Origin: Cryptosporangium arvum DSM 44712
GTDB lineage: Bacteria > Actinomycetota > Actinomycetes > Mycobacteriales > Cryptosporangiaceae
Assembly: GCF_000585375.1 (NCBI RefSeq)
Contig: NZ_KK073874.1
Span: forward strand, 8,653,913 to 8,717,912
Length of the DNA stretch: 64,000 nt
Direction of reading: 5' to 3'
The notes under the pieces were generated by a model that saw only the letters and a program-made list of their open reading frames with translations, did not search any database and had not been told where the DNA came from. A program made the position numbers and the translations under genes. Positions 8,271 through 56,416 of the stretch are shown piece by piece. Within the stretch, counting starts at the first letter, position 1, and every line of letters begins with the position of its first letter.

Positions 8271-8298
8271 GCAGCGGCTCGCGCGCGTTGGCCGGTGC

Positions 8299-8721: not shown

Positions 8722-8809
8722 ATCCTTCCTTACAGGTAGGAAATACCAGTTGTCCCGCACACCAGGAGTCACGTCCCACATTTCAAGACGGCAGCCCGGA
8801 AGTGTTTGC

Positions 8810-8815
8810 TAGGCT
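8810..8815 (+). promoter_or_regulatory. -10 box of the sulfur operon
   Basis: TAGGCT lies 7 nt before the ATG of the cysteine leader peptide, the spacing expected for a leaderless mRNA. No clear -35 is visible. An imperfect palindrome (8725-8741, TTCCT-AC-GTA-GGAA pattern) lies about 70 bp upstream and could be a regulator site. Confidence 0.45.
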
Positions 8816-8822
8816 GGCCGAC

Positions 8823-8897
8823 ATGAGCCCCCTGCTCACCAAGCGCCGCGCGGTGGATCTCTGCCGCGTCGGTAGCTGCCTGTGTCCCCCGGCCTGA
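8823..8897 (+). CDS. Cysteine-containing leader peptide (24 aa)
   Basis: A 24-codon frame begins MSPLLTKRRAVDLCRVG and carries cysteines at positions 14, 19 and 21 just before the stop. It matches the small 'putative leader peptide' family found before sulfur genes in actinobacteria. In mycobacteria such leaderless Cys-codon frames act as cysteine-responsive attenuators: stalling at Cys codons when cysteine is scarce raises expression of the genes behind. It has a -10 box at leaderless spacing and stands 79 nt before the DUF4395-cysA-sseC operon, so it probably controls it. Confidence 0.85.
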   Translation: MSPLLTKRRAVDLCRVGSCLCPPA

Positions 8898-8976
8898 CGC
8901 CGGGCGATGCACGCTGAGCAGGCCATGAACGCGTGACCGTCGCCCTGACCCCAGCTCACTGGATGTCAGGAGACCT

Positions 8977-9444
8977 ATGTCCAAGTTATCCCCAGCGGCG
9001 GTCGATCCGCGTGGGCCGCGCTTCGCCGCCTGGATCACCTCGGTCGTCCTCGCGATCGTGGTGCTCACCGGCAGCGGTTGGCTCCTCGCCGCCCAGGCGG
9101 TGGTGTTCGCGCTCGGTGCGTTCGTCGGGCTGGGCGCCGCTCCGTACGCGGCGCTCTACCGGGCGCTGATCGCACCGCGGCTCGCGCCGCCTACCGAGCG
9201 CGAGGACGCCACCCCGGTACGGTTCGCCCAGGGCGTCGGTTTTGTGTTCGCGCTGGTCGGCACCGTCGGCTACCTCGCCGGGGCGCCACTCGTCGGCATC
9301 GTCGCCACCTCGGCGGCGCTGATCGCGGCGTTCCTCAACGCCGCGTTCGGACTCTGCCTCGGCTGCCTCGCGTACCTCCGCGGCCGGCTGCTGCTGTCCC
9401 GCTTCTCCCGCACGAAAACCCCACACAAAGGAGTGCCTGCATGA
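8977..9444 (+). CDS. DUF4395 membrane protein
   Basis: The 155-residue protein has about four membrane segments and the family's C-terminal GLCLGCLAYLRGR, in which two cysteines (CLGC) face the membrane boundary. DUF4395 proteins are regularly found before cysA-type sulfurtransferases or thioredoxins in actinobacteria; their reaction is not established. A CAGGAG ribosome site precedes ATG 8977, and the TGA overlaps the cysA start (ATGA), showing translational coupling. Confidence 0.85.
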   Translation: MSKLSPAAVDPRGPRFAAWITSVVLAIVVLTGSGWLLAAQAVVFALGAFVGLGAAPYAALYRALIAPRLAPPTEREDATPVRFAQGVGFVFALVGTVGYLAGAPLVGIVATSAALIAAFLNAAFGLCLGCLAYLRGRLLLSRFSRTKTPHKGVPA

Positions 9445-10274
9445 GCCGCGAGTCCGCGCTCGTCTCGACCGATTGGGCCGAGAAGAACCTCAACGCCGAG
9501 AACACCGTGTTCGTGGAGGTCGACGAAGACACCACGGCCTACGACAACGGGCACATCCCCGGCGCGATCAAGCTCGACTGGAAGACCGACCTCCAGGACC
9601 CGGTGCGTCGCGACTTCGTCAACAAGGAGCAGTTCGAGGCTCTGCTGTCGAGCCGAGGCATCGGCAACGACGACACCGTCGTGCTCTACGGCGGCAACAA
9701 CAACTGGTTCGCCGCGTACGCGTACTGGTACTTCAAGCTCTACGGCCACGAGGCCGTGAAGCTGATCGACGGTGGCCGCAAGAAGTGGGAGCTCGACGGT
9801 CGCGAGCTGGCCAAGGACGTCCCGCAGCGCGCCGCGACGAGCTACACCGCCAAGGAGCAGGACACCTCGATCCGCGCCTTCCGGGACGAGACCGTCGCCG
9901 CGATCGGCGTCCAGAACCTGGTCGACGTCCGGTCGCCCGACGAGTTCTCCGGCAAGCTGCTCGCCCCGGCGCACCTGCCGCAGGAGCAGTCGCAGCGGGG
10001 CGGTCACATTCCGACCGCGGTGAACGTGCCCTGGAGCAAGGCCGCAAACGAGGACGGAACGTTCAAGTCGGACGACGACCTCCGTAAGATCTACGGCGAG
10101 GCCGGCCTCGACGACAGCAAGGACACGATCGCGTACTGCCGCATCGGCGAGCGGTCGAGCCACACCTGGTTCGTGCTGCGTGAGCTGCTCGGCCACCAGA
10201 ACGTCAAGAACTACGACGGTTCGTGGACCGAGTACGGTTCGCTGATCGGCGTTCCGATCGAAAAGGACGTCTGA
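9441..10274 (+). CDS. cysA: Thiosulfate sulfurtransferase (rhodanese)
   Basis: The 277-residue protein consists of two rhodanese domains. It follows mycobacterial CysA2 almost throughout, for example VEVDEDTTAYDNGHIPGAIK, LYGGNNNWFAAYAYWYFKLY and LAPAHLPQEQSQ. The active-site cysteine is Cys233 in AYCRIGERSSHTW. It transfers sulfane sulfur from thiosulfate (or another donor) to an acceptor thiol in the cytosol. The start ATG overlaps the DUF4395 stop, and sseC follows after 2 nt. The operon is probably induced at low cysteine through the leader peptide. Confidence 0.95.
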   Translation: MSRESALVSTDWAEKNLNAENTVFVEVDEDTTAYDNGHIPGAIKLDWKTDLQDPVRRDFVNKEQFEALLSSRGIGNDDTVVLYGGNNNWFAAYAYWYFKLYGHEAVKLIDGGRKKWELDGRELAKDVPQRAATSYTAKEQDTSIRAFRDETVAAIGVQNLVDVRSPDEFSGKLLAPAHLPQEQSQRGGHIPTAVNVPWSKAANEDGTFKSDDDLRKIYGEAGLDDSKDTIAYCRIGERSSHTWFVLRELLGHQNVKNYDGSWTEYGSLIGVPIEKDV

Positions 10275-10276
10275 GC

Positions 10277-10579
10277 ATGTGCGGAGCTCCTGAGCAGACC
10301 GAAGACCTGAGCACCGAAGGCATCGACACCGCCAAGGAAACCGTGATCCAGGGTGTCGTCACCGCGAGTGACGGCTCGCCGGTTCCCAGCGCGTTCGTGC
10401 GGCTGCTCGACTCGACCGGCGAGTTCACCGCCGAGGTGGTGTCGTCGGCGACCGGCGCGTTCCGGTTCTTCGCGGCGCCCGGCGACTGGACGGTCCGGGC
10501 CCTGCACTCCAGCGGCAACGGCCAGACCGACGTGGCGGCCGACAAGGGCGTCAACCAGGCCAGCCTGGTTCTCGCCTGA
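10277..10579 (+). CDS. sseC: SseC/DUF1416 family protein
   Basis: The 100-residue product is all-beta and resembles a single carboxypeptidase-regulatory-like (transthyretin) fold, with a central stretch VIQGVVTASDGSPVPSAFVR. A CG-containing N-terminus (MCGAPEQ) is typical of the family. In mycobacteria sseC follows cysA2 in the same way; its biochemical role is not settled, although it is linked to sulfur metabolism. The start is 2 nt after the cysA stop and a terminator follows. Confidence 0.9.
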   Translation: MCGAPEQTEDLSTEGIDTAKETVIQGVVTASDGSPVPSAFVRLLDSTGEFTAEVVSSATGAFRFFAAPGDWTVRALHSSGNGQTDVAADKGVNQASLVLA

Positions 10580-10597
10580 GCGGTTCAGCATTTTGTC

Positions 10598-10632
10598 GAG
10601 AGCCTGTCCGGCATACCGCCGGGCAGGCTCTC
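10598..10632 (+). terminator. Terminator of the cysA-sseC operon
   Basis: A 15-bp inverted repeat (GAGAGCCTGTCCGGC / GCCGGGCAGGCTCTC, one G-T pair) with a 5-nt loop lies 18 nt after sseC. It lacks a long U-tract, as usual in this GC range. Confidence 0.75.
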
Positions 10633-10666
10633 GTCATGAGCGCGGTTCCGCTTCTACCCTGGTCGT

Positions 10667-11827
10667 ATGGGCACCCCGGACGAAATTCCGGGCGACGGTG
10701 AACGTCACCTGAGCCGTGCGCCTGCCTACTGGGACGACGGCGACGGCGCCGTCCCAGGTTTTGAGGTGTCCAGCACGAGCGTGTGGGAGACGTCGGCGCG
10801 CCGGGGGTTACCCGAGCCGCACGCCCCGGAGGGCCCTCCGCTCCCGGAGACCGACGGGCCCGGCGGCTCGGAGCCGTCGGCCGACGCCGAACCACCGCCC
10901 GCCGACGAGCCGGCCCGGCGGACGGACGCGCTCGCACGGGCCGAGCTCTGGGCGCGTGCCCGGCGGACCCCGCTGGTGTGGATCGCGGCCTTCGTCGTCG
11001 GCACGCTGCTGGGGGGCGCGGCCGTGCACGGCTGGGAGACCCAGGCCGCCGACGCGGCCCGCCGCGACACCGTGCAGCTGACCGCGCGGGTGGCCGAGGA
11101 CGCGGCCAGCAGCGCGAGCTGGACCGGTGCGCGCCAGCCGTGGACGTTACGGATCGTCCTGACGAACAGCGGCCCCAACGAGGTCCGCCTCCGCGACGCG
11201 CGGCTGCCCGACCGCCGGTACACGTCGAAGCTCCGGCAGGTCAGCCGCGGCGTCCGGATCCCGGCCGGTCAGGAGACCTGGATCTCGATGGACGTCACGC
11301 ACTCGTGTCTGCGCGGCGGCCCGGCGTCCGCGCCGCGCGACGTCGCGCTGACCGTGGCACCGGCCGGGCGACCGGAACGCGAGGTGCGGGCCCGGCTCGC
11401 CGACGACAACACGCTCTTCGTCGACACCGCCCGGCAGAAGTGCCAGACCGTCGCGAGCGACATCTGGATCACCTCGGAGTTGACCGGCGATCCGGCCGAT
11501 CTGGACACCGTGCTCGTGACACCGATCCGGATCCGCCAGCACGACCGGCGCGCCGTGGCGATCCGGGAGATACGCACCCCGACCCCGGGCCTGTCGATGG
11601 TCGCGTCGACCCGGCCGGTCGGTTTCGTCGAGGACGTCACGCCGGTGACCGCGTTGCGATGGTCCATCGCGGACTGTGAACGCGCCCGCGTCGTCGTCTA
11701 CGCGGAGGTGGGCATCTCAGGTGTGGTGCAGCTCGCCGACGGTGATCCGTCGATCCGGACGGCGATCGTGCTCGACGCCAACGCGGTGCTGGCGATCGTC
11801 CGCTTCATCACCCGCTCGTGCGGGTGA
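10667..11827 (+). CDS. Single-pass membrane protein, unknown function
   Basis: The 386-residue protein has an acidic Pro-rich cytoplasmic N-terminus (about 1-100), one membrane segment (PLVWIAAFVVGTLLGGAAV, about 104-122) and a larger extracytoplasmic C-terminal part rich in beta strands (RIVLTNSGPNEVRLRDARLP). The outer part contains three spaced cysteines before a final Cys near the C-terminus, possibly disulfide-bonded. No catalytic motif is recognised. The stop is 1 nt from the convergent DsrE-like gene. Confidence 0.7.
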   Translation: MGTPDEIPGDGERHLSRAPAYWDDGDGAVPGFEVSSTSVWETSARRGLPEPHAPEGPPLPETDGPGGSEPSADAEPPPADEPARRTDALARAELWARARRTPLVWIAAFVVGTLLGGAAVHGWETQAADAARRDTVQLTARVAEDAASSASWTGARQPWTLRIVLTNSGPNEVRLRDARLPDRRYTSKLRQVSRGVRIPAGQETWISMDVTHSCLRGGPASAPRDVALTVAPAGRPEREVRARLADDNTLFVDTARQKCQTVASDIWITSELTGDPADLDTVLVTPIRIRQHDRRAVAIREIRTPTPGLSMVASTRPVGFVEDVTPVTALRWSIADCERARVVVYAEVGISGVVQLADGDPSIRTAIVLDANAVLAIVRFITRSCG

Positions 11828-11828
11828 C

Positions 11829-12191
11829 TCAGTAGACGAGCGCCTGGGCGTTGTCGAGCAGGATCTCCTCCACGAACACCGCCGCGCCGGCGATGCGCAC
11901 ACCGGGCAGCACGTCGTTCTCGGTGATCTCGCGCCGGGCGGCGCACTGCGTGCACAGCGTCACCCGCCCCGCGGACAGGAGAGAGATCAGGAGGTCCGAG
12001 AGCGGAGCCGAGTGCGGGAGGTCGAACTCGGCGGCCCGGCCGGGCAGCGCGAACCAGGAGGATTCACCGGTGAGCCAGAGCGAGACGTCGACTCCGGACG
12101 CCAGGGCCGTGGCGGCGACCGTGAACGCCTGCGCACAGCGTTCGGGAGCATCCGCTCCTGCTGTCACCTTGACGACCAGTGAGCGGCTCAT
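11829..12191 (-). CDS. DsrE/DsrF-like family protein
   Basis: The 120-residue protein fits the DsrE-like fold: LVVKVTAGADAPERCAQAF at the start, DVSLWLTGESSWFALPG in the middle, and a conserved cysteine pair in VTLCTQCAARREI. Proteins of this fold carry or sense persulfide sulfur, which suits the nearby sulfurtransferase operon, but a direct link is inference. Start ATG 12191 has no strong ribosome site. It is divergent from the small membrane peptide gene at 12291. Confidence 0.75.
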   Translation of the reverse strand: MSRSLVVKVTAGADAPERCAQAFTVAATALASGVDVSLWLTGESSWFALPGRAAEFDLPHSAPLSDLLISLLSAGRVTLCTQCAARREITENDVLPGVRIAGAAVFVEEILLDNAQALVY

Positions 12192-12290
12192 GAGCAGACC
12201 TTAGGGGTAGCGCGGCCCCGCCGCTGTACCCGCCGCGCTGTGTCCAGGGCCACCTGCGTGGATGGCGGGTCGGCGCCATAGACTCGGGGG

Positions 12291-12392
12291 GTGCTCGAGA
12301 CCTTCTTCCTAGTGCTGCTGGTGGCGGCCTTCCTCGTCATCGGCTGGTTCGGCTTCTACGTCGTGTACAAGCTCTACCAGGGGCAGCGCTGA
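12291..12392 (+). CDS. Small single-pass membrane protein (33 aa)
   Basis: A GTG-started 33-codon frame encodes a single hydrophobic helix (VLLVAAFLVIGWFGFYVVYK) with a short polar tail, LYQGQR. A TAGACT -10-like box ends 6 nt before the GTG, suggesting leaderless expression. Its TGA is 2 nt before the nitrobindin start, so the two are probably one transcription unit. The function is unknown; the fixed coupling hints at a membrane tether or chaperone. Confidence 0.6.
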   Translation: MLETFFLVLLVAAFLVIGWFGFYVVYKLYQGQR

Positions 12393-12394
12393 CC

Positions 12395-12931
12395 GTGACC
12401 GATCCCGCCGGATACCCGTACGAGGAGACCCACGACCTCCGCACCGGGCCGAACCTGCACGAGTCGCTGCTCGGTCTGCTGCCGTTCGTCGGTGTGTGGC
12501 GCGGCACCGGCAAGGGTGGTTACCCCGACATCGAGGACTTCGACTACGCCCAGGAAGTGCGGTTCAGCCACGACGGCCGCCCGTTCCTCGCGTACGAATC
12601 GCGGGCCTGGATCATCGACGCCGAAGGGCGCCCGGTCCGCCCGGCGGCCCGCGAGGTCGGGTGGTGGCGTCCGCAGGGTGAGGACGCGGTGGAGGTGCTG
12701 CTCACGCACCCGACCGGTTTCGTCGAGGTGTACGTCGGTGAGATCGACGGGCTGAAGGTGGAGCTGAGCACCGACGCGATCGTGCGCACCGCGAGCGCGA
12801 AAGAAGTCTCGGCGAACCATCGCCTCTACGGAATCGTCGAGGGCGATCTGCTGTACGCGCACGACATGGCCGCCATGGGCAACGATCTCACGCCGCACAT
12901 GAGCGCTCGCCTCAAGCGCATCGCCGGCTGA
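12395..12931 (+). CDS. Nitrobindin-like heme protein (FABP-like, DUF1794)
   Basis: The 178-residue beta-barrel protein has the family signature GVWRGTGKG (residues 33-41) and the second motif EVGWWRPQ. The C-terminus HMSARLKRIAG carries the histidine expected as proximal heme ligand. It is the counterpart of Rv0813c, and nitrobindins bind ferric heme and isomerise peroxynitrite to nitrate. The start GTG is 2 nt after the 33-aa membrane peptide. Confidence 0.88.
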   Translation: MTDPAGYPYEETHDLRTGPNLHESLLGLLPFVGVWRGTGKGGYPDIEDFDYAQEVRFSHDGRPFLAYESRAWIIDAEGRPVRPAAREVGWWRPQGEDAVEVLLTHPTGFVEVYVGEIDGLKVELSTDAIVRTASAKEVSANHRLYGIVEGDLLYAHDMAAMGNDLTPHMSARLKRIAG

Positions 12932-12954
12932 GCGCGTCTCTGATCGGGGGCATT

Positions 12955-13140
12955 AAAAAGCCCCTCAGGCTTTGTTCCGCGATTCGTATCGCGGAGCCGG
13001 TCGGACGAGTCCGGCAGCCTGAGGGGTCGGTGGTTACCTTGGTTTGCCTCACCGCCGTCTACGTGCACAAAGGCAGCGGTTCGGACCGTAGTCCAACGGG
13101 CGGCTAGGAAGTAGCCACCTCACGAGTCCGATAAGTATTC
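12955..13140 (-). ncRNA. Candidate structured RNA with terminator-like 3' end
   Basis: On the minus strand this interval folds into successive stems. They are GGTGGCTA/TAGCCGCC (13099-13119), TTGGAC/GTCCGAA (13080-13096), and a three-way junction. The junction's outer stem is AGCCTGAGGGG type (12960-12971 with 13016-13026); its inner hairpins are TCCGCGAT/ATCGCGGA (12976-12995) and GCCGG/CCGGC (12996-13015). The minus transcript then runs into U5. A GGGGAGG sequence and a 12-codon TTG frame (LNTYRTREVATS) sit at the 5' side, so a leader-type peptide is another possibility. It lies 3' of the ADC-lyase-like gene. No known RNA family is recognised. Confidence 0.45.
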
Positions 13141-13207
13141 AACTTTGGACCACCTCCCCTCTCGTGTACCTCGAATCTACGTCGGGCTCCGGGAGTCGGC
13201 AACGCAA

Positions 13208-14056
13208 TTAAAGCGGGAATCCGAGAATGCGTTGTACGCCCTCGGTGAACCCCCGCTCGCCGAGCGGCTTGCCGTCGAGCGTCGTCACCCGGGCCGCACC
13301 CCGGACGCTCGAGCACAGCCACACCTCGTCGGCCGCCGCGAGCTCGTCGACGCGCACCCGGGCGTGTTCGGCCCGCAGCCCCAGCTCGCCGGCCCGTTCG
13401 AGCAGGAAGCTCGCGGTGGTCCCGGCCAGGATCCCGGTGTCGACCGGAACCGTGCGCAGCGCGCCGTCGGCGGCCCACACGACGGTGGCGGTCGGCGCCT
13501 CCAGCACCTCACCCTCGGTCGAGACCAGGATCGCGTCGTCGGCACCGACCGACGCCGCGTGCCGCAGCGCCGCCATGTTCACCGCGTACGAGAGCGTCTT
13601 GGCGCCGCCCAGCAGCCACGGCGCGGTGTTCCGGGCGTCCGCGGGCACGCCGAGCGAGATCGAGACGACCGAGACCCCTTCGCGGCGGCCGCGCAGCTGC
13701 GCCGGCGAGACGTCGAACATCGTCGCGAACACCGTGGGCGGCTCGGCCTGGCCGGTGTCGGGCCCGCGGGTGCAGACGATCTTCACCGCCACTTCGGCGT
13801 CCTCGACCGCGTCCACCAGCACGTCGTCGATCAACGCGGCGAGTTCTCCGGCCGGCGGGAGCGCGATCCCGAGCGTCCGGGCCGAGCCCGCCATGCGGGC
13901 CAGGTGCTCGTCGAGCTGCCAGGGCTTGCCGTACCGGACGTGGACGGTCTCGAAGATGCCGTCGCCGCGGGTGAGCCCCGCGTCGTCGGCGCGGGCGATG
14001 GGCGTTTCGACCGGCACGGGACCCCGGCCGAGGAGCGCGAGCGCACGGGTAGTCAT
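13208..14056 (-). CDS. Class IV PLP enzyme (ADC lyase / aminotransferase-like)
   Basis: The 282-residue protein belongs to the fold-type IV PLP family (aminodeoxychorismate lyase, branched-chain and D-amino-acid transaminases). The PLP lysine is probably Lys153 in LLGGAKTLSYAVN, and RGDGIFETVHV (30-40) and EVLEAPTATVVW are usual family stretches. It is the positional counterpart of Rv0812. If it is PabC it makes 4-aminobenzoate for folate in the cytosol, but D-amino-acid transaminase activity cannot be excluded from sequence alone. It is divergent from the Fur gene, 30 bp apart. Confidence 0.85.
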   Translation of the reverse strand: MTTRALALLGRGPVPVETPIARADDAGLTRGDGIFETVHVRYGKPWQLDEHLARMAGSARTLGIALPPAGELAALIDDVLVDAVEDAEVAVKIVCTRGPDTGQAEPPTVFATMFDVSPAQLRGRREGVSVVSISLGVPADARNTAPWLLGGAKTLSYAVNMAALRHAASVGADDAILVSTEGEVLEAPTATVVWAADGALRTVPVDTGILAGTTASFLLERAGELGLRAEHARVRVDELAAADEVWLCSSVRGAARVTTLDGKPLGERGFTEGVQRILGFPL

Positions 14057-14086
14057 ACGCCGAACGGTAGTGAATACGATGGAAGC

Positions 14087-14566
14087 ATGCCGCCACCGTC
14101 ACTGACCGATGCGCTGCGGTCCCGCGGGCTACGGATGACCGTGCAGCGGCAACTCGTCATGGAAGCCGTCGAGCGGCTGGGGCACGCCACCCCGGAACAG
14201 GTGCACGCGCAGGTGACGCGGACGGCGGCGGGCATCAACCTGACCACCGTCTACCGCACGCTCGAACTGCTCGAACAGATCGGGCTGGTGCGCCACACCC
14301 ACCTCATCGACGCGGCCACCACTTATCATCTGGCCGCTGACCAGCACTTCCACCTGGTCTGTCGGATGTGCAGGACGGTGTCGGAAGCCCCGATCGGGAT
14401 GCTCGCCGACCTGGCCGGGCGGCTGGCCGACGAGCGCGGCTTCAGCATGGACGTCGGCCACGTCGCGCTGTTCGGTGTCTGCGGCAACTGCAGCGACGGA
14501 AATACCTGCGACCCGGAGACCGCTGCACCTACCGGATCCCCCAATCCGGAGGTGCTGTCGTCATGA
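14087..14566 (+). CDS. Fur-family metalloregulator
   Basis: The 159-residue protein has the Fur winged helix (LRSRGLRMTVQRQLVMEAV...TTVYRTLELLEQIGLV) and a C-terminal metal-binding half. HFHLVCRMC and CGNC supply the paired cysteines expected for structural zinc. The metal specificity (iron, zinc, manganese) cannot be fixed. ATG 14087 follows weak leader sequence; the TGA overlaps the ygfZ ATG (ATGA). The short divergent promoter region could place the ADC-lyase-like gene under the same control. Confidence 0.9.
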   Translation: MPPPSLTDALRSRGLRMTVQRQLVMEAVERLGHATPEQVHAQVTRTAAGINLTTVYRTLELLEQIGLVRHTHLIDAATTYHLAADQHFHLVCRMCRTVSEAPIGMLADLAGRLADERGFSMDVGHVALFGVCGNCSDGNTCDPETAAPTGSPNPEVLSS

Positions 14567-47106: not shown

Positions 47107-48114
47107 TCAGTGCAGCGGGCGGGTGAGGGCCGACAGGATCAGGATGCTGAGGCGGCGCGCGCGGTCGGGAGTGAAGCCCGCGTCCTCGGCGGCCTCCTCG
47201 ACGATCTGGCCGACGGTGGCGGTGCCGAGGCTGCTCAGGTGCGGTAGCGCGGTGGCCGGTCCGTGGATCAGGCGGCGGCGGGCCGCACCGCGGTTACGCC
47301 GCCAGCGGGCGACACCGCCGTGGTGGCGGGTCCCGACGTGCCCGAGCACACCGGTCGCCGCGCAGGTGAGCATCGCCAGCGACAGCACCGTGACGAGTTC
47401 GGACTTCGGACCACCCAGCTGGAGCGCGAGCGGGTCGTCGCGTCGGGCGCCCGACAGCGCCCAGCGGATGACGCGGCGCCGCAGGACCTCGTCCTCGAAG
47501 AAGCGCTGGACGACGATCGGGAAGCGGGTCATCTCGGCCGGGGCCAGCTCCTGGACGATCAGCTCGGTGGCGCCGCCGACGGTGTGCGGACCCAGGTCCT
47601 CCCAGCGCGGCTCGACCGGTTCGGCCGGTTCGTCGGCCGGGACGTCGGGGAAGCGCTCGTCGTCGGTTTCGACGTCGTCGGCCGGGATCTCGTCGGCCGA
47701 TTCCGCCGGTTCGTCGTCCGCCTGCTCGTCGTCCGCCGGCTCGTCTACTGCCTGCTCGTCGTCGGGGTCGTCGTCCCAGTACTCCGGCGTGCCGTAGCCG
47801 GTCGCACGGTACTCGCGCGCCGGTGGGCGGGACGGCACCTCGCCCCGCCAGACCACTTCGCCCTCGATCACCGCGGGCGGACGGTCACCGAACGGCTCGT
47901 ACGCCTCGCGGTACGGGTTGAGCACGAACCGCATGGTCGGAGCGTCGTCGTCCGGGTGGTCGAACACTCCACGGTAGGAGTTCAGCACGAACCGAGCCGT
48001 GGGGGTCTCGTCCTCGGTCCACGGATCGGGGTCCACCCAGAACGCCGCGGTCGGAGCGTCGTCTTCGTCGAGCGCCGCACCCCGATGGCGTCCTCCGCCG
48101 TACGGGTCGGTCAC
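47107..48114 (-). CDS. Hypothetical protein with three acidic-PT motifs and a helical C-terminal domain
   Basis: The 335-residue protein starts with three copies of an acidic-P-T-x-x-F motif (DDAPTAAF, DETPTARF, DDAPTMRF; Thr22, Thr39, Thr60), two of which continue VLN-Y. An Asp/Glu/Pro-rich linker follows (about 95-170). The last 160 residues look folded and helical (ELIVQELAPAEMTRFPIVVQ to LSILILSALTRPLH). The motifs resemble sites for Ser/Thr kinases read by FHA domains; that is inference. GTG 48114 has AGGAGG upstream. Confidence 0.65.
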   Translation of the reverse strand: MTDPYGGGRHRGAALDEDDAPTAAFWVDPDPWTEDETPTARFVLNSYRGVFDHPDDDAPTMRFVLNPYREAYEPFGDRPPAVIEGEVVWRGEVPSRPPAREYRATGYGTPEYWDDDPDDEQAVDEPADDEQADDEPAESADEIPADDVETDDERFPDVPADEPAEPVEPRWEDLGPHTVGGATELIVQELAPAEMTRFPIVVQRFFEDEVLRRRVIRWALSGARRDDPLALQLGGPKSELVTVLSLAMLTCAATGVLGHVGTRHHGGVARWRRNRGAARRRLIHGPATALPHLSSLGTATVGQIVEEAAEDAGFTPDRARRLSILILSALTRPLH

Positions 48115-48205
48115 AGGCGCCACCTCCTGCGACTGTCATCGGCGGAAGCATCCGGATGATGAGGCCGATAACTCGCCGATTTAGCGAGGCGACTACCGTG
48201 TCGGC

Positions 48206-48778
48206 ATGGACCGGGCCCCCGCGCAGACCACTTATCTACTGGTCGACGGCGAGAACATCGACGCCACGCTGGGCAGCAACATCTTCGGCGGTCGCCGCCC
48301 CAGCCCGCAGGAGCGTCCCCGCTGGGAGCGCGTCCGCGACTTCGCCAGCGAAACCTGGGACCGTCCGGTCAAGGCCCTGTTCTTCCTCAACGCGAGCTCG
48401 GGCCAGTTGCCGCTGCCGTTCATCCAGGCGCTGCTCGCGCTGGACTACCAGCCGATCCCGCTCTCCGGCAGCACCGGGGAGAAGGTCGTCGACATCGGTA
48501 TCCAGCGGACGCTCGACGCGCTCGTCGACCGGCCCGGCGACGTGCTCCTGGCCAGCCACGACGGTGACTTCTTCGATCAGATCGAACGGCTCCTCGACGG
48601 CACCCGCCGGGTGGGGCTGCTCGGGTTCCGCGAGTTCGTCAACTCCCGGTTCACCGAGCTGACCACCGAGGGCCTGGAGATCTACGACCTCGAGGACGAC
48701 GTCCGGTGCTTCAACGCGCGCCTGCCGCGCGTCCGCATCATCAACATCGACCGCTTCGACCCGCTGCCGTACCTGTAG
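48206..48778 (+). CDS. NYN-domain (PIN-like) ribonuclease
   Basis: The 190-residue protein matches the NYN/LabA fold. Catalytic acids are Asp14 in LLVDGEN, Asp96 in GEKVVDIGIQRTL, and Asp119 and Asp121 in ASHDGDF. The fold cleaves RNA using Mg ions; the target is unknown. It is divergent from the acidic-PT gene and 72 bp before the flotillin operon, with which it may be functionally linked. Confidence 0.88.
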   Translation: MDRAPAQTTYLLVDGENIDATLGSNIFGGRRPSPQERPRWERVRDFASETWDRPVKALFFLNASSGQLPLPFIQALLALDYQPIPLSGSTGEKVVDIGIQRTLDALVDRPGDVLLASHDGDFFDQIERLLDGTRRVGLLGFREFVNSRFTELTTEGLEIYDLEDDVRCFNARLPRVRIINIDRFDPLPYL

Positions 48779-48850: not shown

Positions 48851-49480
48851 ATGCGGCGGAGAGGAAAGCGCCCGGTGGGTGGTCTGTTAGGTGCGGCCTT
48901 CGGCTTCCCAGCGGTGATCTTCACTTTCGCGCTCGTGGTAGTTGTCGGTTACTGGGTCCTGGTGATCGCCGGCGGCCTCGGCGTCGACGCGCTCGACGGT
49001 GACGCCGGCGCGGACGGCACCGGTGCGCTCGGTGCGATCGGCCTCGGCGGGGTGCCGGCGAGCGTCTCGCTGTCGGTGTTGATCGCGGTCGCCTGGTTCG
49101 GCACGTTCGTGGGGAGCGCGGTGCTCGGCAACGACGGATTCCTCATCGACGTCGGACTGCTGACCGGAGCAGTCGTCGTCGCCTGGTTAGCGACCCGGCT
49201 ACTGGCCCTTCCGCTGCGCCGATTCTTTCCGGACGAGAAGCTGCCGTCCCGCTCGGATTTCCTCGGCCAGGTCTGCGTGATCCGCACCGGCCGGGTCGAC
49301 GCCAAATTCGGTCAAGCCGAAGTCACCGCCGACGACGGATCGTCGGCACTTGTGCAGGTGCGCCAAACTGGCGAGTACGACCTTCGCGCGGGTGAAACCG
49401 CGCTGATCTACGACTACGACTCGGACGGCGAATACTTCTTCGTGATGCCGTCGACGCTGCCCAACCACGGAGCTAGGTAA
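48851..49480 (+). CDS. OB-fold membrane protein, YqiJ-like (flotillin partner)
   Basis: The 209-residue protein has three membrane segments (about 12-42, 72-95, 100-120) and a C-terminal OB-fold-like domain (GQVCVIRTGRVDAKFGQAEVTADDGSSALVQVR). It resembles the YqiJ/NfeD-type proteins that accompany flotillins. ATG 48851 follows a weak AACG leader. It is 4 bp before the flotillin gene and should make a complex with it in the membrane. Confidence 0.82.
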   Translation: MRRRGKRPVGGLLGAAFGFPAVIFTFALVVVVGYWVLVIAGGLGVDALDGDAGADGTGALGAIGLGGVPASVSLSVLIAVAWFGTFVGSAVLGNDGFLIDVGLLTGAVVVAWLATRLLALPLRRFFPDEKLPSRSDFLGQVCVIRTGRVDAKFGQAEVTADDGSSALVQVRQTGEYDLRAGETALIYDYDSDGEYFFVMPSTLPNHGAR

Positions 49481-49484
49481 ATTC

Positions 49485-51602
49485 ATGGACGCTGTGGCCC
49501 TCGGGGTCGGCGTGTTGATCGCCGTCGCCTTGATCGTCGTTCTCGGCCTCACCATCATGGTGAGCAGATTGTTCAAAAAGGTCGAACAGGGCAAAGCCCT
49601 GATCGTTTCGAAGGTCAAGAAAGTCGACGTGACTTTCACCGGAGCGACGGTCATTCCGGTGCTCCACCGCGCCGAGGTCATGGACATCTCGGTGAAGACA
49701 ATCGAGATCGCGCGGACCGGCCGTGAGGGCCTGATCTGCCGCGACAACATCCGTGCCGACATCCGGATCACGTTCTTCGTGCGGGTCAACAAGACCGTCG
49801 AGGACGTCATCAAGGTCGCGCAGGCGATCGGCACCGCACGCGCGAGCAACCAGGACACGCTCCAGGAACTGTTCAGCGCGAAATTCTCCGAGGCGCTGAA
49901 GACCGTCGGTAAGCAACTCGATTTCGTCGACCTCTACACGAAGCGGAACGAATTCCGCGATCAGATCATCGCGGTCATCGGCACCGATCTCAACGGGTAC
50001 AGCCTCGAAGACGCCGCGATCGACTACCTCGAGCAGACGCCGCTCACCCAGCTCGACCCGGCAAACATTCTCGACGCGCAGGGCATTCGCAAGATCACCG
50101 AATTGACGGCGATCGAGCACGTGCGTACCAACGAATTCCAGCGCACCGAAGAAAAAGAGATCACGCGCCAGAACGTCGACGCCAAGGAAGCGGTTCTCGA
50201 GCTGCAGCGCCGGCAGGCCGACGCCGAGATCAAGCAGCGGCGTGACATCGAGACCAACCGGGCCCGCGAAGAGGCCGAGATTTCGCGCGTCCAGGCCGAG
50301 GAACGGCTGAAGGCCCAGAAGGCGCACCTGATCACCGACGAAGCGCTCGGTATCCAGAACCAGAACAAGGACCGGGAGATCGCGGTCGCGGAGAAGAACC
50401 GCGAGCGGGTACTGGCGATCGAGACCGAGCGGATCGAGAAGGACCGCCTGCTCGAGGTCATCGCCCGGGACCGCGAGACCCAGCTCTCCACGATCAACAA
50501 GGACAAAGAGGTCGAGGTCGAGAAGCGCGCGATCGCCGACATCGTCCGGGAGCGCATCGCGGTCGAGAAGACCGTCGCCGAGCAGGAAGAGAACATCAAG
50601 AAGCTGCGCGCGGTCGAAGAGGCCGAGCGGATGCGCCAGACGCTGATCATCCAGGCCGAGGCCGAGGCGCAGGAGAAGCTGGTCAAGGACATCAAGGCCG
50701 CCGAGGCCGCCGAGCAGGCCGCGCAGCACCTGGCCCGCGAAGCGCTCACGCTGGCCGAGTCGCGCCAGCGGGCCGCCGAGCTCGACGCCGCCGCGAAGAT
50801 CCGGCTCGCCGAGGCGACCAAGGCCGAGGCCGCCGCGCCGGGCCTGGCCGCGGTGCAGGTCCGCGAGGCCGAGGCCGACGCGATCGAGAAGAGCGGTCTC
50901 GCCGAGGCCGTCGCCGACCGCGAGAAGGGCCTGGCCCAGGCGCTCGTCGCCAAGGAGAAGGGTCTGGCCGAAGCCGCCATCGCGAAGGAGAAGGGCCTCG
51001 CCGAGGCGACGGCCGTCAAGGAGAGGGGCCTGGCCGACGCCGAGGCGCTGCGCGAGAAGCTGAAGGGCGAGGCCGAGGGCCTCACCGACAAGGCCGCCGC
51101 GATGGCCGCGCTCGACGACGCCACCCGCCAGCACGAGGAGTACCGCCTGCGGCTGGAAGCCCAGAAGGAGATCCAGCTGGCGAACATCGACGTCCAGCGG
51201 CAGATCGCCGAGGCGCAGGCCACCGTGCTCTCCACCGGTCTGCAGAACGCCGACATCGACATCGTCGGTGGCGACACGGTGTTCTTCGACCGGCTGATGA
51301 GCTCGATCGCGTTCGGCAAGGGCGTCGACAAGTTCGTCGAGCACTCCGACGTGGCCGGCAAGCTGACCCAGCCCTGGCTGGACGGCTCCGCGAGCTTCAC
51401 CGACGACCTGCGCAACGTCCTCGGTTCGGTGGACTCCGCCGACATCCGCAACCTGACGATCTCCGCGCTGCTGATGAAGATGATCAAGGGTGGCGGCCCG
51501 GACGCCGCGAAGCTCGGTGAGCTCCTCGGCTCGGCCCGTCAGCTCGGCATCGCCGACACCCCGCTGTCCCAGCTCACCGCTCTGAACGGCGCGACGAAGT
51601 AG
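49485..51602 (+). CDS. Flotillin-like SPFH protein (YqiK type)
   Basis: The 705-residue protein has one N-terminal membrane segment (about 5-25), an SPFH domain (about 30-220, with VEQGKALIVSKVKKVDVTFTG) and a very long coiled coil (about 220-590). Near residues 481-535 the coil has five 11-residue repeats, REKGLAQALVA, KEKGLAEAAIA, KEKGLAEATAV and so on. Flotillins form membrane microdomain scaffolds. Its stop overlaps the start of the ATPase gene (A of TAG is A/G-shared), so the two are coupled. Confidence 0.9.
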   Translation: MDAVALGVGVLIAVALIVVLGLTIMVSRLFKKVEQGKALIVSKVKKVDVTFTGATVIPVLHRAEVMDISVKTIEIARTGREGLICRDNIRADIRITFFVRVNKTVEDVIKVAQAIGTARASNQDTLQELFSAKFSEALKTVGKQLDFVDLYTKRNEFRDQIIAVIGTDLNGYSLEDAAIDYLEQTPLTQLDPANILDAQGIRKITELTAIEHVRTNEFQRTEEKEITRQNVDAKEAVLELQRRQADAEIKQRRDIETNRAREEAEISRVQAEERLKAQKAHLITDEALGIQNQNKDREIAVAEKNRERVLAIETERIEKDRLLEVIARDRETQLSTINKDKEVEVEKRAIADIVRERIAVEKTVAEQEENIKKLRAVEEAERMRQTLIIQAEAEAQEKLVKDIKAAEAAEQAAQHLAREALTLAESRQRAAELDAAAKIRLAEATKAEAAAPGLAAVQVREAEADAIEKSGLAEAVADREKGLAQALVAKEKGLAEAAIAKEKGLAEATAVKERGLADAEALREKLKGEAEGLTDKAAAMAALDDATRQHEEYRLRLEAQKEIQLANIDVQRQIAEAQATVLSTGLQNADIDIVGGDTVFFDRLMSSIAFGKGVDKFVEHSDVAGKLTQPWLDGSASFTDDLRNVLGSVDSADIRNLTISALLMKMIKGGGPDAAKLGELLGSARQLGIADTPLSQLTALNGATK

Positions 51603-54600
51603 TGACCGAGGTAGCGACGGATCCAGCCCCGGCAACGCCGGGGCTGGACGCCGGAACCTACGACGTCCTCCGCACGCGGCTGAAGACCCAGGCCACCGAG
51701 CTGGCCGAGCACGTCGAGACGCTGAACACCCAGCGCCTCGAGGTCTTCGGCGGCACCGAGCTGCGTCTCACCGGCACCGCCCAGATCCGCACCGCTCACA
51801 ACTGCGTTCCGCGGGACATCGCGTCGGTCGGCGACCGGCTGCTCTTCGGCTACAACGCCTACCTGGGCATGAAGCCGGAGACGACCGTCGACGACGTCTT
51901 CTCGGTGCACCGCCTGGTGCGTGACAACGACCGGCTGAGCTTCGAGCAGCTCGAGCACGACCCGCTCCTGACCGACGAGCAGTTCACCAAGGACCTCGGC
52001 GAGCAGTACCGGTACTTCCGGGAGAGTTCGCTGCTGCAGCTGCGGCGGGTCGACCCGCTGCTGCTCGCGGTGTTCCGCACGAGCCCCAACGCCGACGACA
52101 ACCGCGTGCTGCGGTGGCGGCTCAACCTCGACGGGTCGGCGCAGTACGTCGACAACAAGGGCGAGCGCGACCACACGTTCCCGGCGAAGCAGGACTTCGA
52201 CTGGGTCGAGACCACCCGCAACGATCACGTCCTCGGCCGGCACCCGCACATCTCGATCCAGGGTGTGGTGTTCGTCGAGACGATCGGCGGCGACCTCACG
52301 ATCAAGGTCGAGAACAACACCGAGTCCGGCGAGGGCATCTACACCGAGCCGGTCAAGGAGCCGCTGCAGAGCCTGGCCGACGCCGACGTCGGCTACGCCC
52401 GGATCGGGCCGCTGATCCTGCTGCGCATCCGGCCCTACAAAGAGGACGCCTGGCGCTACCTGATCTTCAACACGCTCACCCGTGACGTCCTGCGGCTGGA
52501 CGGCATCGGACAGGCCTGCCAGCGGCTGCCCGAGGACCAGGGCATCATCGTGCCCGGCGGGTACTACCTGGCCACCGGCGTCCACCGGGTCTTCGACCAG
52601 GACACGACCGGGCTGGAGTTCGAGCGCGTCATCCGCTCGACGAACGGCGAGGACGTCCTCTACGTCTTCCACAACCGCGGCGACGGCCGGTACCTGTTGC
52701 TGCCGTACAACGTGATCCGCAAGGAGATCGCCAACCCGATCCCCTGCCACGGGTACGCGTTCTACGACGACGGCACGCTCGTCGTGCTGCGCGCGACCAG
52801 CGCCGAGCCGACTCGCGTCCACCAGTTGCAGGTGTGGCAGACGCCGTACGTGTCGGACACGTACGCGGCGGCGCAGCCGGTGGGCACCGGACCACTGGAG
52901 CGGATCGGCAACGCCGACCTGGTCCGTGGGATCTCCGACCTGCTGTCGGTCGCCCGGATGGCCGAGGAGACGACGCCGACCGAGGCGGCGTTCGACGCGC
53001 TGATCGGGGCGTGCCGCCGGGCCGTCGACCAGTACCACTGGCTCACCGACAGCGGCCTGGACGCGCCGCTGGGTCAGTTGCGTCGCACCGCCGAGCAGGT
53101 CCGGGAAGAGTTCGAGAAGGTCCAGAGCCTCACCGCGCAGGCCGCGGAGGCGCTCGCCGCCGCGGTCACCGAGATCGGCACGCTGATCCGGGGTGCGCGC
53201 ACGGAGTCGCCGGCCACCGCCGAGGAGTGGGCGGCCCAGCTCGCGTCGCTGCGCCGGGCCCAGGGCCGGCTGGTGGGGCTGCGTGAGGTCCGGTACGTCG
53301 ACGTGGCCGCCGTCGACGCGCTCGCCGCGGAACTGACCGACGAGCTCGCGGCTGCCGGCCGCCGGGCGGTCGAGTTCCTCCGCGGCGACGGCGCTTTCGA
53401 CAGCTACGAACAACAGGCCGAACAGCTCACGGCCGACGCCGAAGCGATCGCGTCGGTGGCCGAGGCCGCGCCGCTCGCCGAGCGGCTCGATCAGCAGTCC
53501 GACGGGCTGGCCGTCGTCACCGAGGTCCTCACCTCGCTCGACATCGAGGACGCGACCGTACGCACCGAGCTGCTGGCGCGGATCGGCGGTGTGCTCGGCA
53601 GCATCAACCGGGCCCGGGCCACGCTCGACGCCCGGCGGCGCGAGCTGCTCGCGGTCGAGGGGCGGGCCCAGTTCGCGGCCGAGTTCGCGCTGCTCGGGCA
53701 GGCCGTGACCGGCGCGCTAGCGGTCGCCGACTCCCCCGAGGCCTGCGACGAACAGCTCGCGAAGCTGATGGCGCAGGTCGAGGGCCTGGAGTCCCGGTTC
53801 GGGCACTTCGACGAGTTCCTCGGTTCGCTCGCGGAGAAGCGTGAGGACGTCTACGAGGCGTTCTCGGCGCGGAAGCAGGCGCTCCTCGACGACCGGCAGC
53901 GGCGGGCCAACCGGCTGGCCGGGAGCGCCGACCGGATCCTCGGCAGCATCCAGCGCCGGGCCACCACGCTGGCCACGCTCGAGGACGTCAACACGTACTT
54001 CGCGACCGACCCGATGGTCGGCACGCTGCGTGGACTGATCGGTGAGCTGAAGACGCTCGGCGACCCGATCCGCGCCGAGGAGTTCGAGCGGCGGCTGGCG
54101 ACCGCGCGCCAGGAGGCCGGCCGGTCGCTGCGTGACCGCACCGACCTGTACGACGGCGACACGATCCGGCTGGGGCGCCACCGGTTCGCGGTGAACACCC
54201 AGCCGGCCGAGCTGACGCTGGTGCCGCACGACGGCAGGCCGGTGTTCGCGATCACCGGCACCGACTACCGCGCGCCGGTCGCCGACCCGACCTTCGCGGC
54301 GACCGCCGAGTTCTGGGACCAGCCGCTGGTCTCCGAGGACGCGTCGCTGAGCCGCGTGGAGTATCTCGCCGGGTCGCTGCTGCTCGCCGGCGAGCGTGAC
54401 CCGTCGAAGGTGCAGGCGGCCGCGGCCGACCGGTACGAGGAGGGGTACGAGCGCGGGGTCCACGACCAGGACGCGGCGCTGATCCTGCGGAAATTGGTCG
54501 AGCTGTACGACGGCGCCGGGCTGCTGCGGTACTCGCCGCGGGCGCGGGCGGCGGCTCAGCTCTTCTGGGCATACGCGGTCCGGGACCGCAAGCAGTGGGA

Positions 54601-56416
54601 GGTCCGCGCCCGGTCGCTGACCCGCGCGAACGAGATCTTCGGCGCCGCCGACGGGCTGGCCGCGCTGACCGCGGACCTGGCCGCCGAGATGACCGAGGCC
54701 GACCAGCCGCTGCTCGCGGCCGAGTACCTGATCGCCGAGCTGGCGCACGAGCCGTTCGGGTTCGTCACCGGCCCGTCGGCCGCCGCGTTGGTCGCGGGGT
54801 TCGAGAAGGCGCTCGGGCCGAACGCGTCCACGCTGGAGGAGGACCTCAAGGAACTCGGCGACGACGTCACGGCCCGGCACCGGCTGATCGACGCGTGGAT
54901 GGCGGCCTATTCGCCGGACGCGAGCGAAGACCGCGACGAGGCGGTCGCGTACCTGCTGATCGGCGACGCGGTGCCCCGCCGGGACTCGACGGCGTCCCTC
55001 GAAACGACGGTGGAAGGGCTGCTCTCGGCCCATCCCCGCATCGCCGGCCGGACGCTCACCGTGCGACTCGACGACGTGCTGGCCCGGGTCCGCCGATTCG
55101 CCGACGTCCGGGTGCCGGCGTTCCGCGCGTACCAGAAGCAGCGCGCCGCGGTGATCGCCGAGGAACGCGCCCGGCTCCGGCTCAACGAGCTCGAAGCCGG
55201 CGTGCTCAGCTCGTTCGTCCGCAACCGGCTCATCGACCAGGTCTACCTGCCGCTGATCGGCGACAACCTCGCCAAGCAGCTCGGCACCGTCGGCCCCGAC
55301 TCGCGTACCGACCAGATGGGCCTGCTGCTCCTGCTGTCCCCGCCCGGCTACGGCAAGACGACGCTCATGGAGTACGTCGCGTCGCGGCTCGGCCTGGTGT
55401 TCGTGAAGGTCAACGGTCCGGCGCTGGGCCACGACGTCACCTCGCTCGACCCGGCCGAGGCACCGAACGCGGCCGCCCGGCGCGAGGTCGAGAAGATCTC
55501 GTTCGCGCTGGAACTCGGCAACAACACGCTGCTGTACCTGGACGACATCCAGCACACCTCGCCGGAGCTGCTGCAGAAGTTCATCTCGCTCTGCGACGCC
55601 ACGCGGCGCATCGAGGGCGTCTGGAACGGCGAGACGAAGACGTACGACCTGCGCGGCAAGCGGTTCGCGGTGTGCATGGCCGGTAACCCGTACACCGAGT
55701 CCGGCCAGCGGTTCCAGGTGCCGGACATGTTGGCCAACCGGGCCGACGTGTGGAACCTCGGCGACGTGCTCTCCGGGCGCGAGGAACTGTTCGCGCTGAG
55801 CTTCCTGGAGAACACGCTCACGTCGAACCCGGTGCTCGCTCCGCTCTCGACCGGCGCGCCCGCCGACGTCGAGCTGCTCGTCCGGCTCGCGCGCGGAGAC
55901 GCGACCGTGCGGCCCGACCAGCTGGAGAAGACCTACTCCTCGGTGGAGCTGGAGCAGATCCTGGCCGTGCTCCGGCATCTGCTGCGCGTGCAGCGGGTCG
56001 TGCTGCGCAACAACGAGGCGTACATCGCGTCGGCGGCCCAGGCGGACGCTTCGCGTACCGAGCCGCCGTACCGGCTGCAGGGTTCGTACCGGAACATGAA
56101 CAAGATGGCGCAGCGGGTGCTGCCGGTGATGAACGACGCCGAGCTCGAAGCCGTCATCGACGACCACTACGTCGGTGAGGCGCAGACGCTCGCGGCGGAC
56201 GCCGAGGCGAACCTGCTGAAGCTGGCGGAGCTGCGGGGGGTGCTGACTCCCGCGACGGCCGAGCGGTGGGCGGCCGTGAAGGAGGGGTACCTGCGCGAGC
56301 GCGCTCTGGGCGGCGCGGACGACCCGCTGGGCCGGGCGGTCGGCGCGGTGGGCCTACTTGCCGACCGGGTCAGGGAGGTCGAGCAGGCCATCACCCGACT
56401 TGGGCCGCGCGCGTAG
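51602..56416 (+). CDS. Very large AAA ATPase, DUF3686 / 'DNA repair ATPase' type
   Basis: The 1604-residue protein has a DUF3686-like N-terminal beta-rich region (about 1-430), a coiled region (about 440-830), a middle domain (about 870-1,200) and a C-terminal AAA ATPase. Walker A is GYGKTT (1249-1254, Lys1252) and Walker B is LLYLDDIQH (Asp1314, Asp1315). Sensor-type stretches follow (FAVCMAGNPYTESG). There is no membrane helix. The family name 'DNA repair ATPase' is database tradition, without evidence here. Coupling to the flotillin suggests action at a membrane scaffold. It overlaps the convergent DedA gene by 63 bp. Confidence 0.85.
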   Translation: MTEVATDPAPATPGLDAGTYDVLRTRLKTQATELAEHVETLNTQRLEVFGGTELRLTGTAQIRTAHNCVPRDIASVGDRLLFGYNAYLGMKPETTVDDVFSVHRLVRDNDRLSFEQLEHDPLLTDEQFTKDLGEQYRYFRESSLLQLRRVDPLLLAVFRTSPNADDNRVLRWRLNLDGSAQYVDNKGERDHTFPAKQDFDWVETTRNDHVLGRHPHISIQGVVFVETIGGDLTIKVENNTESGEGIYTEPVKEPLQSLADADVGYARIGPLILLRIRPYKEDAWRYLIFNTLTRDVLRLDGIGQACQRLPEDQGIIVPGGYYLATGVHRVFDQDTTGLEFERVIRSTNGEDVLYVFHNRGDGRYLLLPYNVIRKEIANPIPCHGYAFYDDGTLVVLRATSAEPTRVHQLQVWQTPYVSDTYAAAQPVGTGPLERIGNADLVRGISDLLSVARMAEETTPTEAAFDALIGACRRAVDQYHWLTDSGLDAPLGQLRRTAEQVREEFEKVQSLTAQAAEALAAAVTEIGTLIRGARTESPATAEEWAAQLASLRRAQGRLVGLREVRYVDVAAVDALAAELTDELAAAGRRAVEFLRGDGAFDSYEQQAEQLTADAEAIASVAEAAPLAERLDQQSDGLAVVTEVLTSLDIEDATVRTELLARIGGVLGSINRARATLDARRRELLAVEGRAQFAAEFALLGQAVTGALAVADSPEACDEQLAKLMAQVEGLESRFGHFDEFLGSLAEKREDVYEAFSARKQALLDDRQRRANRLAGSADRILGSIQRRATTLATLEDVNTYFATDPMVGTLRGLIGELKTLGDPIRAEEFERRLATARQEAGRSLRDRTDLYDGDTIRLGRHRFAVNTQPAELTLVPHDGRPVFAITGTDYRAPVADPTFAATAEFWDQPLVSEDASLSRVEYLAGSLLLAGERDPSKVQAAAADRYEEGYERGVHDQDAALILRKLVELYDGAGLLRYSPRARAAAQLFWAYAVRDRKQWEVRARSLTRANEIFGAADGLAALTADLAAEMTEADQPLLAAEYLIAELAHEPFGFVTGPSAAALVAGFEKALGPNASTLEEDLKELGDDVTARHRLIDAWMAAYSPDASEDRDEAVAYLLIGDAVPRRDSTASLETTVEGLLSAHPRIAGRTLTVRLDDVLARVRRFADVRVPAFRAYQKQRAAVIAEERARLRLNELEAGVLSSFVRNRLIDQVYLPLIGDNLAKQLGTVGPDSRTDQMGLLLLLSPPGYGKTTLMEYVASRLGLVFVKVNGPALGHDVTSLDPAEAPNAAARREVEKISFALELGNNTLLYLDDIQHTSPELLQKFISLCDATRRIEGVWNGETKTYDLRGKRFAVCMAGNPYTESGQRFQVPDMLANRADVWNLGDVLSGREELFALSFLENTLTSNPVLAPLSTGAPADVELLVRLARGDATVRPDQLEKTYSSVELEQILAVLRHLLRVQRVVLRNNEAYIASAAQADASRTEPPYRLQGSYRNMNKMAQRVLPVMNDAELEAVIDDHYVGEAQTLAADAEANLLKLAELRGVLTPATAERWAAVKEGYLRERALGGADDPLGRAVGAVGLLADRVREVEQAITRLGPRA

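Follow-up and report, generated by a model that had tools for sequence, protein, structure and literature searches.

A flotillin-linked DUF3686 AAA+ ATPase in Cryptosporangium arvum as part of a possible membrane-associated remodelling module

A stretch of 64,000 nucleotides of the Cryptosporangium arvum DSM 44712 genome (contig NZ_KK073874.1, positions 8,653,913 to 8,717,912), here called the window, contains an operon of three genes for a YqiJ-like membrane protein, a flotillin and a giant DUF3686-type AAA+ ATPase. The steady core of this gene set is the flotillin-ATPase pair, since both genes stay linked across the loci compared while 11 Streptomyces loci are without the YqiJ gene. The gene set is already published (Ravi et al., 2024; PMC11237479) and the window is a further member; added here are numbers on the linkage, a comparison of the motor fold and the scar of a module loss. 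With a probability of about 0.5, the module is read as a flotillin-anchored, MoxR-like, ATP-driven remodeller of membrane-associated assemblies under envelope stress. According to the list of open reading frames (ORFs), the genes are located as follows:

48851-49480, plus strand: YqiJ/NfeD2-like membrane protein gene, 209 amino acids (aa), ATG start
49485-51602, plus strand: flotillin (SPFH2-like) gene, 705 aa, ATG start
51602-56416, plus strand: DUF3686 AAA+ ATPase gene, 1604 aa, GTG start

For the analysis of the linkage, 106 loci were used, namely the window, 10 loci from a sample of the window's phylum, 80 from named genomes, 8 from a plasmid collection, 5 from a second phylum sample and 2 from genus mates. 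The named-genome loci are the best 80 of 535 confirmed matches, mostly from Streptomyces and other Actinomycetota, and 8 of the 12 matches in the plasmid collection were examined. A flotillin gene lies directly upstream of the ATPase gene in 104 of the 106 loci (phylum sample 10/10, named genomes 78/80, plasmid collection 8/8, second sample 5/5, genus mates 2/2). Both exceptions, L032 and L085 (loci are numbered with L, genomes with G), start at a contig end less than 300 bp from the ATPase gene. An earlier interpretation made from the DNA letters only (the sequence-only reading) had stated that DUF3686 homologues occurring mostly without flotillins would speak against it, and this is not what the loci show. 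The linkage was found in Actinomycetota, Pseudomonadota, Deinococcota and Bacteroidota, also in Myxococcus and several metagenome-assembled genomes. The 106 loci are not independent events, because the draws may share species and the 80 best-scoring ones are mostly from Streptomyces and other Actinomycetota. Among the plasmid-collection records, those of Nonomuraea (11.9 Mb) and two of Proteus (4.1 Mb) are of chromosome size; the pQBR103, Hymenobacter, Deinococcus and Streptomyces records have 0.17-0.56 Mb.

Near 18 representative loci, relatives of genes outside the module were found in no more than 29 of the 80 named-genome loci, for most of these genes in 8-16; flotillin and ATPase reach 78-79, and most YqiJ queries 39-50. 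ORFs on the opposite strand within the module were regarded as shadows in this count. A YqiJ gene was detected in 63 of these 80 loci; room for it exists in 74 of the 80, as L032, L037, L043, L065, L074 and L085 start too near the flotillin or ATPase gene to judge. The end of the YqiJ profile is reached by 54 of the 63 matches. In 11 loci, all from Streptomyces, there is room and no gene matching the profile; among these, L061 contains an ORF in which two hydrophobic stretches are found, likewise without a match to the profile. The YqiJ gene is present in 8/10 loci of the phylum sample, 8/8 of the plasmid collection and 4/5 of the second sample. An obligate three-gene unit is not supported, given the 11 Streptomyces loci, and neither would a ternary complex of fixed composition hold for all loci. 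The pairwise divergence of flotillin and ATPase is correlated over 103 loci (r = 0.94, uncorrected for common descent), which is in part due to shared ancestry.

In the window, inspection of the bases bore out the 4-bp and overlapping junctions claimed earlier: the TAA stop codon of the YqiJ-like gene (49478-49480) is followed by a 4-bp gap and the ATG at 49485, and the flotillin TAG stop codon (51600-51602) has its G in common with the GTG start of the ATPase gene (TAGTG), resulting in a 1-bp overlap. With ORF starts set mechanically, 20 of the 77 loci in which both ORFs were called show an overlap between the flotillin and the ATPase ORF, which is exactly 4 bp long in 12. A promoter scan, which is uninformative in a high-GC genome, gave no sigma-70-like promoter upstream of the operon, and its single sigma-70-like site falls within the flotillin gene, on the minus strand. 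Split genes were seen in two genomes, by assembly error or decay: G128 has two modules with one ATPase split into two ORFs (L013 4175-9121), and G182 has splits in its two flotillin genes (L017 9678-11612, L018 4037-5861).

At the genome level, DUF3686 was found in 9 of the 396 genomes of the phylum sample and in none of 14 control genomes. A module-type flotillin scored strongly in the same 9 genomes of 392, so that 9/9 ATPase genomes contain it; two further flotillin matches (E 7e-9 and 8e-9) cover the coil only. Distant flotillins are undercounted in this search, because the profile derives from flotillins linked to the ATPase, and no more than two candidates per genome were scored. In the second sample, centred on G396 (the genome of L063), DUF3686 is present in 8 of 199 genomes and flotillin in 8/8 of these. 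A broader flotillin profile matched in 28 of 198 genomes of this sample, strongly (E < 1e-50) in 8, of which seven have DUF3686 and G426 does not; the eighth DUF3686 genome, G598, has a flotillin as well. The other 20 matches score weakly (E 2e-9 to 1e-3), and ATPase-free flotillins may be among them. Because the DUF3686 genomes of both samples carry flotillin, the ATPase seems to need flotillin, and flotillins occur without the ATPase, e.g., in E. coli.

The module is present in two of the three genus mates. In the third, G601, the NYN-domain gene that precedes the operon in the window is found at 91% DNA identity, followed directly by a remnant of the ATPase C-terminal end (L193 8634-9083), in which about 280 bp resemble the 3' end of the ATPase gene (81%) and the frame is decayed. 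Judged from its sequence, this remnant is the scar of a module loss. As the NYN gene is kept and of the ATPase only a remnant is left, the module is dispensable in G601 and the NYN gene independent of it. After the remnant there is an ORF of 619 aa, subtilase-like by reading of its sequence.

The ATPase consists of a predicted propeller, a helical region and a motor (all on the plus strand):

51698-53038 (residues 33-479), plus strand: DUF3686 region, predicted beta-propeller after an N-terminal helix (AlphaFold2, Foldseek)
53039-54112 (residues 480-837), plus strand: mostly helical region including DUF7902 (Pfam, AlphaFold2)
55178-56233 (about residues 1193-1544), plus strand: AAA+ motor (Pfam; AlphaFold2, mean predicted local distance difference test score, pLDDT, 91.2; Foldseek)
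Residues 1247-1254 (K1252) and D1314-D1315, plus strand: Walker A and Walker B of the motor, motif names by reading
Residues N1362, R1380 and R1497, plus strand: candidate sensor 1, arginine finger and sensor 2 of the motor, motif names by reading

In the Pfam scan, DUF3686 (E 2.9e-208, residues 33-479), DUF7902 (598-681) and, from residue 1242, AAA (E 1.7e-5) and AAA_5 (E 2.2e-5) were identified, and no protease domain. DUF3686, DUF7902 and AAA are present in 10/10 family members (the window and nine relatives); AAA_5 is found in 10/10 members, but so are AAA and AAA_22. The AlphaFold2 model of the propeller has a mean pLDDT of 90.1, and its best Foldseek matches are WD40 and other propellers; a PDB sequence search with this part gave nothing (best E 0.39). 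The model of the helical region covers helices up to residue 593, and residues 601-837 lie outside of it. The ATPase has no membrane segment by hydropathy. In Pfam, and in AlphaFold2 for the modelled parts, it agrees with the AAA+ protein of Ravi et al., in which a beta-propeller and a coiled coil are combined with the ATPase.

K1252, D1314, D1315, N1362, R1380 and R1497 are each identical in 80/80 aligned ATPases, one from the window and 79 from the 80 named-genome loci. The intact Walker A with Lys1252 described in the sequence-only reading is right because of this invariance of K1252; of its Walker B, the acidic pair is equally invariant, the sequence being DD and not DE. From its predicted structure, the motor is probably MoxR-like: CbbQ2 (6l1q, E 2.3e-6) is the first Foldseek match, with RuvB close behind, the MoxR proteins CbbQ and NorQ (9qh4) take ranks 1, 4 and 5, and by reading of the model a hairpin lies ahead of sensor 1 and a long helix ahead of sensor 2.

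The following parts were assigned to the other two proteins:

Flotillin residues 1-33, plus strand: single N-terminal membrane segment (hydropathy)
Flotillin residues 32-175, plus strand: SPFH/Band 7 domain (Pfam Band_7, E 8e-8)
Flotillin residues about 190-590, plus strand: Ala/Glu-rich coil (read from the sequence)
Flotillin after the coil, plus strand: C-terminal tail (alignments)
YqiJ-like protein residues about 133-200, plus strand: C-terminal domain, presumed OB-fold

The N-terminal membrane segment, SPFH domain and long coil are those of an SPFH2/prokaryotic flotillin, next to a candidate NfeD2-type gene, and the protein shares 28% identity with E. coli YqiK (463 columns, E 5e-39). No match to the flotillin C-terminal Pfam domain was found in the window flotillin. 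A PDB search with flotillin profiles gave nothing at 1e-3, and QmcA and flotillin-1 appeared at E 0.009-0.04 in another search. With 705 aa, the flotillin is long and not extreme, because the giant SPFH2b proteins of SPFH2-NfeD2 operons reach about 800-1000 aa (Hinderhofer et al., 2009; PMC2636767).

By hydropathy, the 209-aa protein contains overlapping hydrophobic stretches, three to four in number (8-48, 59-94, 95-122), and Pfam and NCBIfam scans with it gave no match. Against E. coli YqiJ, the profile of its family scores moderately (hhalign probability 69, E 4.4e-5). PF07290 has no match in the window's genome and has matches in the E. coli control, and NfeD was matched weakly by 2 of 15 members of the YqiJ-like family, the window's own protein not among them. 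PDB sequence searches with YqiJ-like profiles gave nothing significant (YuaF 2k14 at E 0.96). The topology is compatible with the three-transmembrane YqiJ/YuaF proteins of Ravi et al., and the profile match (probability 69) is weak. The label YqiJ-like thus rests mainly on position, topology and a weak profile match: of the YqiJ-like membrane protein proposed earlier, the hydrophobic topology stands, and the family match is only moderate. In the YqiJ-like proteins of L013, L014, L015 and L018, the membrane part aligns and the C-terminal OB-like domain is missing.

Published operons are described here from the available passages of the cited papers. Ravi et al. (PMC11237479) present the same operon, with the propeller- and coil-bearing AAA+ protein among its products, propose roles in the assembly of membrane-linked complexes and mention abbreviated operons without PspA; the AAA+ domain class and a quantified dependence are not stated in these passages. 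The view that the system is under-described therefore does not hold. On pQBR103 (L111), genes for YjfI, PspA, a rhomboid protease, DUF2491, DUF350 and DUF1190 proteins and a glutathionylspermidine synthase lie upstream of the trio, and in Hymenobacter (L113) the trio comes directly after a Tir-type chaperone and PspA. The L111 record is a 425-kb plasmid, typed as non-mobilizable, with MPF_I (gene run 1016-14220). Because pQBR103 carries this run from YjfI and PspA to YqiJ, flotillin and AAA+ ATPase, the envelope-stress version can sit on plasmids. A PspA profile made from six sequences, L111 and L113 included, matched in only these two of the 106 stretches, and for this reason PspA linkage is the exception in the sample. 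No PspA was found in the window by profile; CesT/Tir was not searched for. The window's genome has one PspA gene, which is located away from the module.

PA3728 of Pseudomonas aeruginosa is, judged from the gene order, presumably a DUF3686 protein, and PA14_16190 is taken as PA3728. The bac operon of this species encodes BacA (DUF2170/YjfI-type), BacB (PspA-like), NfeD and SPFH proteins, PA14_16190 and PA14_16200; its six genes are co-transcribed, and loss of bacA raises BacB to BacF 6- to 13.5-fold (PMC10948618). The same paper likens bac to the contexts of Ravi et al., including a six-gene operon with DUF2170 and PspA. NfeD was assigned to PA14_16160 and SPFH to PA14_16180 (PMC13086221), PA3728 is entered as 'ATPase' elsewhere (PMC8190622), and the operon is also treated in PMC2587700. 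PA3728-PA3732 were up in all phage-infected samples of one study (PMC12041424). The word 'ATPase' has no occurrence in the available text of PMC10948618 and PMC13086221, and the mentions of PA3729 in the available parts of PMC8926400, PMC12632274 and PMC4957987 are not decisive. In a literature search, no paper was found for DUF3686 by name and none for 'PA3731' with 'phage infection'.

An ATP-driven remodeller is favoured because of the dependence on an SPFH scaffold, the probable MoxR-like motor, the propeller and the occasional company of PspA. We infer that the module remodels or guards the membrane, and likewise infer cage formation, docking, a client and a role in stress. The flotillin, with YqiJ as an NfeD-type partner where present, would form an SPFH ring or cage at the cytoplasmic membrane face; the ATPase would hexamerise via its MoxR-like AAA+ domain and might dock on or in the cage via its helical region. 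The beta-propeller could then pick clients, and ATP would be spent on remodelling or disassembling membrane-associated protein assemblies during envelope stress. Such a machine would resemble HflKC-FtsH, the protease being replaced by a remodeller. PspA, which is ESCRT-III-like, is probably a client or co-worker in some lineages, because it occurs in the same gene run together with a Tir-type or YjfI chaperone. More tentatively, the module may represent a new class of SPFH machines, in which a flotillin cage, with or without NfeD, is dedicated to a non-proteolytic MoxR-type AAA+ remodeller with client reading by a propeller, partly coupled to PspA. If true, the module would stand to HflKC-FtsH as a chaperone counterpart and provide ATP-driven recycling of membrane-repair polymers, coupled to PspA in part of its range, and it could explain how PspA-type polymers are recycled at the expense of ATP in bacteria. 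The role of a bacterial flotillin becomes testable here because it has one near-constant ATPase partner, and the question is whether the ATPase works on the flotillin assembly or inside it, and which client it has.

Several observations weigh against this remodeller. RuvB takes Foldseek ranks 2 and 3 for the motor, at E 2.5e-6 compared to 2.3e-6 for MoxR, and a PDB sequence search favours Rix7, RuvB and NVL. A VWA partner is usual for MoxR proteins, and no VWA family was found among the nine window proteins scanned with Pfam. The flotillin C-terminal tail, kept in most of 18 aligned flotillins, was rejected as a general docking site for the ATPase, being absent in the ATPase-carrying loci L111, L114, L115 and L118. 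To these come the 11 Streptomyces loci without YqiJ, the two PspA matches in 106 stretches and the consideration that linkage alone could stem from co-regulation. In P. aeruginosa, SPFH mutants show little: biofilm of the paFlo3 (SPFH) mutant is reduced by only about 20% (PMC13086221). A strain with an insertion in pa3728, which served as unrelated control in another study, showed good growth on glucose, succinate and fumarate (PMC12599236).

If the ATPase were Vps4-like, its specific substrate would be the PspA polymer and the flotillin would merely recruit it to damaged membrane. PspA within the same gene run on pQBR103, in Hymenobacter and in Ravi et al. (PMC11237479), the one PspA gene elsewhere in the window's genome and the PspA-like gene of the similar-looking bac operon (PMC10948618) argue for this. 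However, PspA matches are confined to the two stretches mentioned, many stretches covering 5-10 kb per side or less, and no PspA was found in G600, a genome whose completeness is not known, with one present in 2/3 genomes searched. Moreover, the AAA+ domain resembles MoxR and RuvB, no Vps4 is among the 50 best Foldseek matches listed, and the Pfam scan gave no MIT domain, so that this substrate specificity appears rather unlikely. A common promoter without any complex, with the ATPase working in the cytosol on unrelated clients, would be consistent with the missing membrane segment and with YqiJ being dispensable at some loci; it becomes improbable given that 104 of 106 loci have flotillin immediately ahead of the ATPase, that the ATPase genomes of both phylum samples carry the module-type flotillin and that the two proteins diverge in parallel.

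The patchy distribution (9/396 genomes, absence from one of three genus mates) and the presence on some plasmids would also suit a system for defence against phages or for guarding the membrane, which would sense membrane damage in an infected cell or block it. This reading is kept as a minor rival because of the reported phage induction of PA3728-PA3732 (PMC12041424), and is judged quite improbable in view of the weak PADLOC matches (best E for the ATPase 9e-4), the viral contigs without a close relative (six peptide patterns, one query) and the lack of a constant further partner gene. For a DNA repair ATPase, there is the name used in Pfam and in the record annotation, a RuvB_N match below the cut-off (E 0.0012, seen in 8/10 members) and RuvB both at Foldseek ranks 2 and 3 and among the best PDB sequence matches. 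The RuvB-type matches, however, cover the generic P-loop region, no nuclease, helicase or DNA-binding domain was found above the cut-off in Pfam and NCBIfam, and the constant partner is a membrane protein. The doubt that the sequence-only reading had cast on this name was justified, even with RuvB among the closest motor folds; a role in DNA repair is highly improbable, and the remodeller, if confirmed, would retire a misleading database name.

Among the neighbouring genes, the NYN-domain gene (48206-48778; PF01936, E 6e-6) lies 72 bp upstream of the operon and is kept in three genus mates, in two with 91% DNA identity. As a fourth member of the module it was rejected: no homologue was found in the 80 named-genome loci (E 1e-5) or the 10 phylum-sample loci (1e-3), and it stays in G601 after the module loss. 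The VTT/DedA gene downstream has no homologue in these 80 and 10 loci; it is convergent to the ATPase gene and overlaps it by 63 bp (window 56354-56416). Two genus mates have an extra ORF between the ATPase and VTT/DedA genes (L191 13513-14658, L192 13349-14539; 381/396 aa), whose DGLDLDYE motif is typical of GH18 chitinase-like proteins. On the minus strand, an acidic protein with repeated units like DDAPTxRFVLNPYR is encoded at 47107-48123, and a similar ORF is present in L191.

In HflKC-FtsH and QmcA-YbbJ, an SPFH protein has an AAA+ or an NfeD partner. Both are discussed as SPFH cages in PMC13086221. Unlike FtsH, the window ATPase has neither a membrane segment nor a zinc protease domain and probably belongs to another AAA+ class. 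The MoxR activators CbbQ and NorQ are among the best Foldseek matches of its AAA+ half; compared to them, it adds a propeller and a helical region and has a flotillin as partner, with no VWA in nine window proteins. In E. coli K-12, an NfeD2-like gene is followed by a flotillin gene as in the window (yqiJ-yqiK), but no AAA+ gene comes after, and the 28% identical YqiK is shorter (553 vs. 705 aa). The bac operon of P. aeruginosa (PA3732-PA3728 plus PA14_16200) is similar in layout, with NfeD-like, SPFH and then PA14_16190, whereas the window is without the bacA and bacB partners. The full operon of Ravi et al. (PMC11237479) contains the CesT/Tir-PspA dyad, whereas the window has no PspA beside the module; it has three gene products in common with the window.

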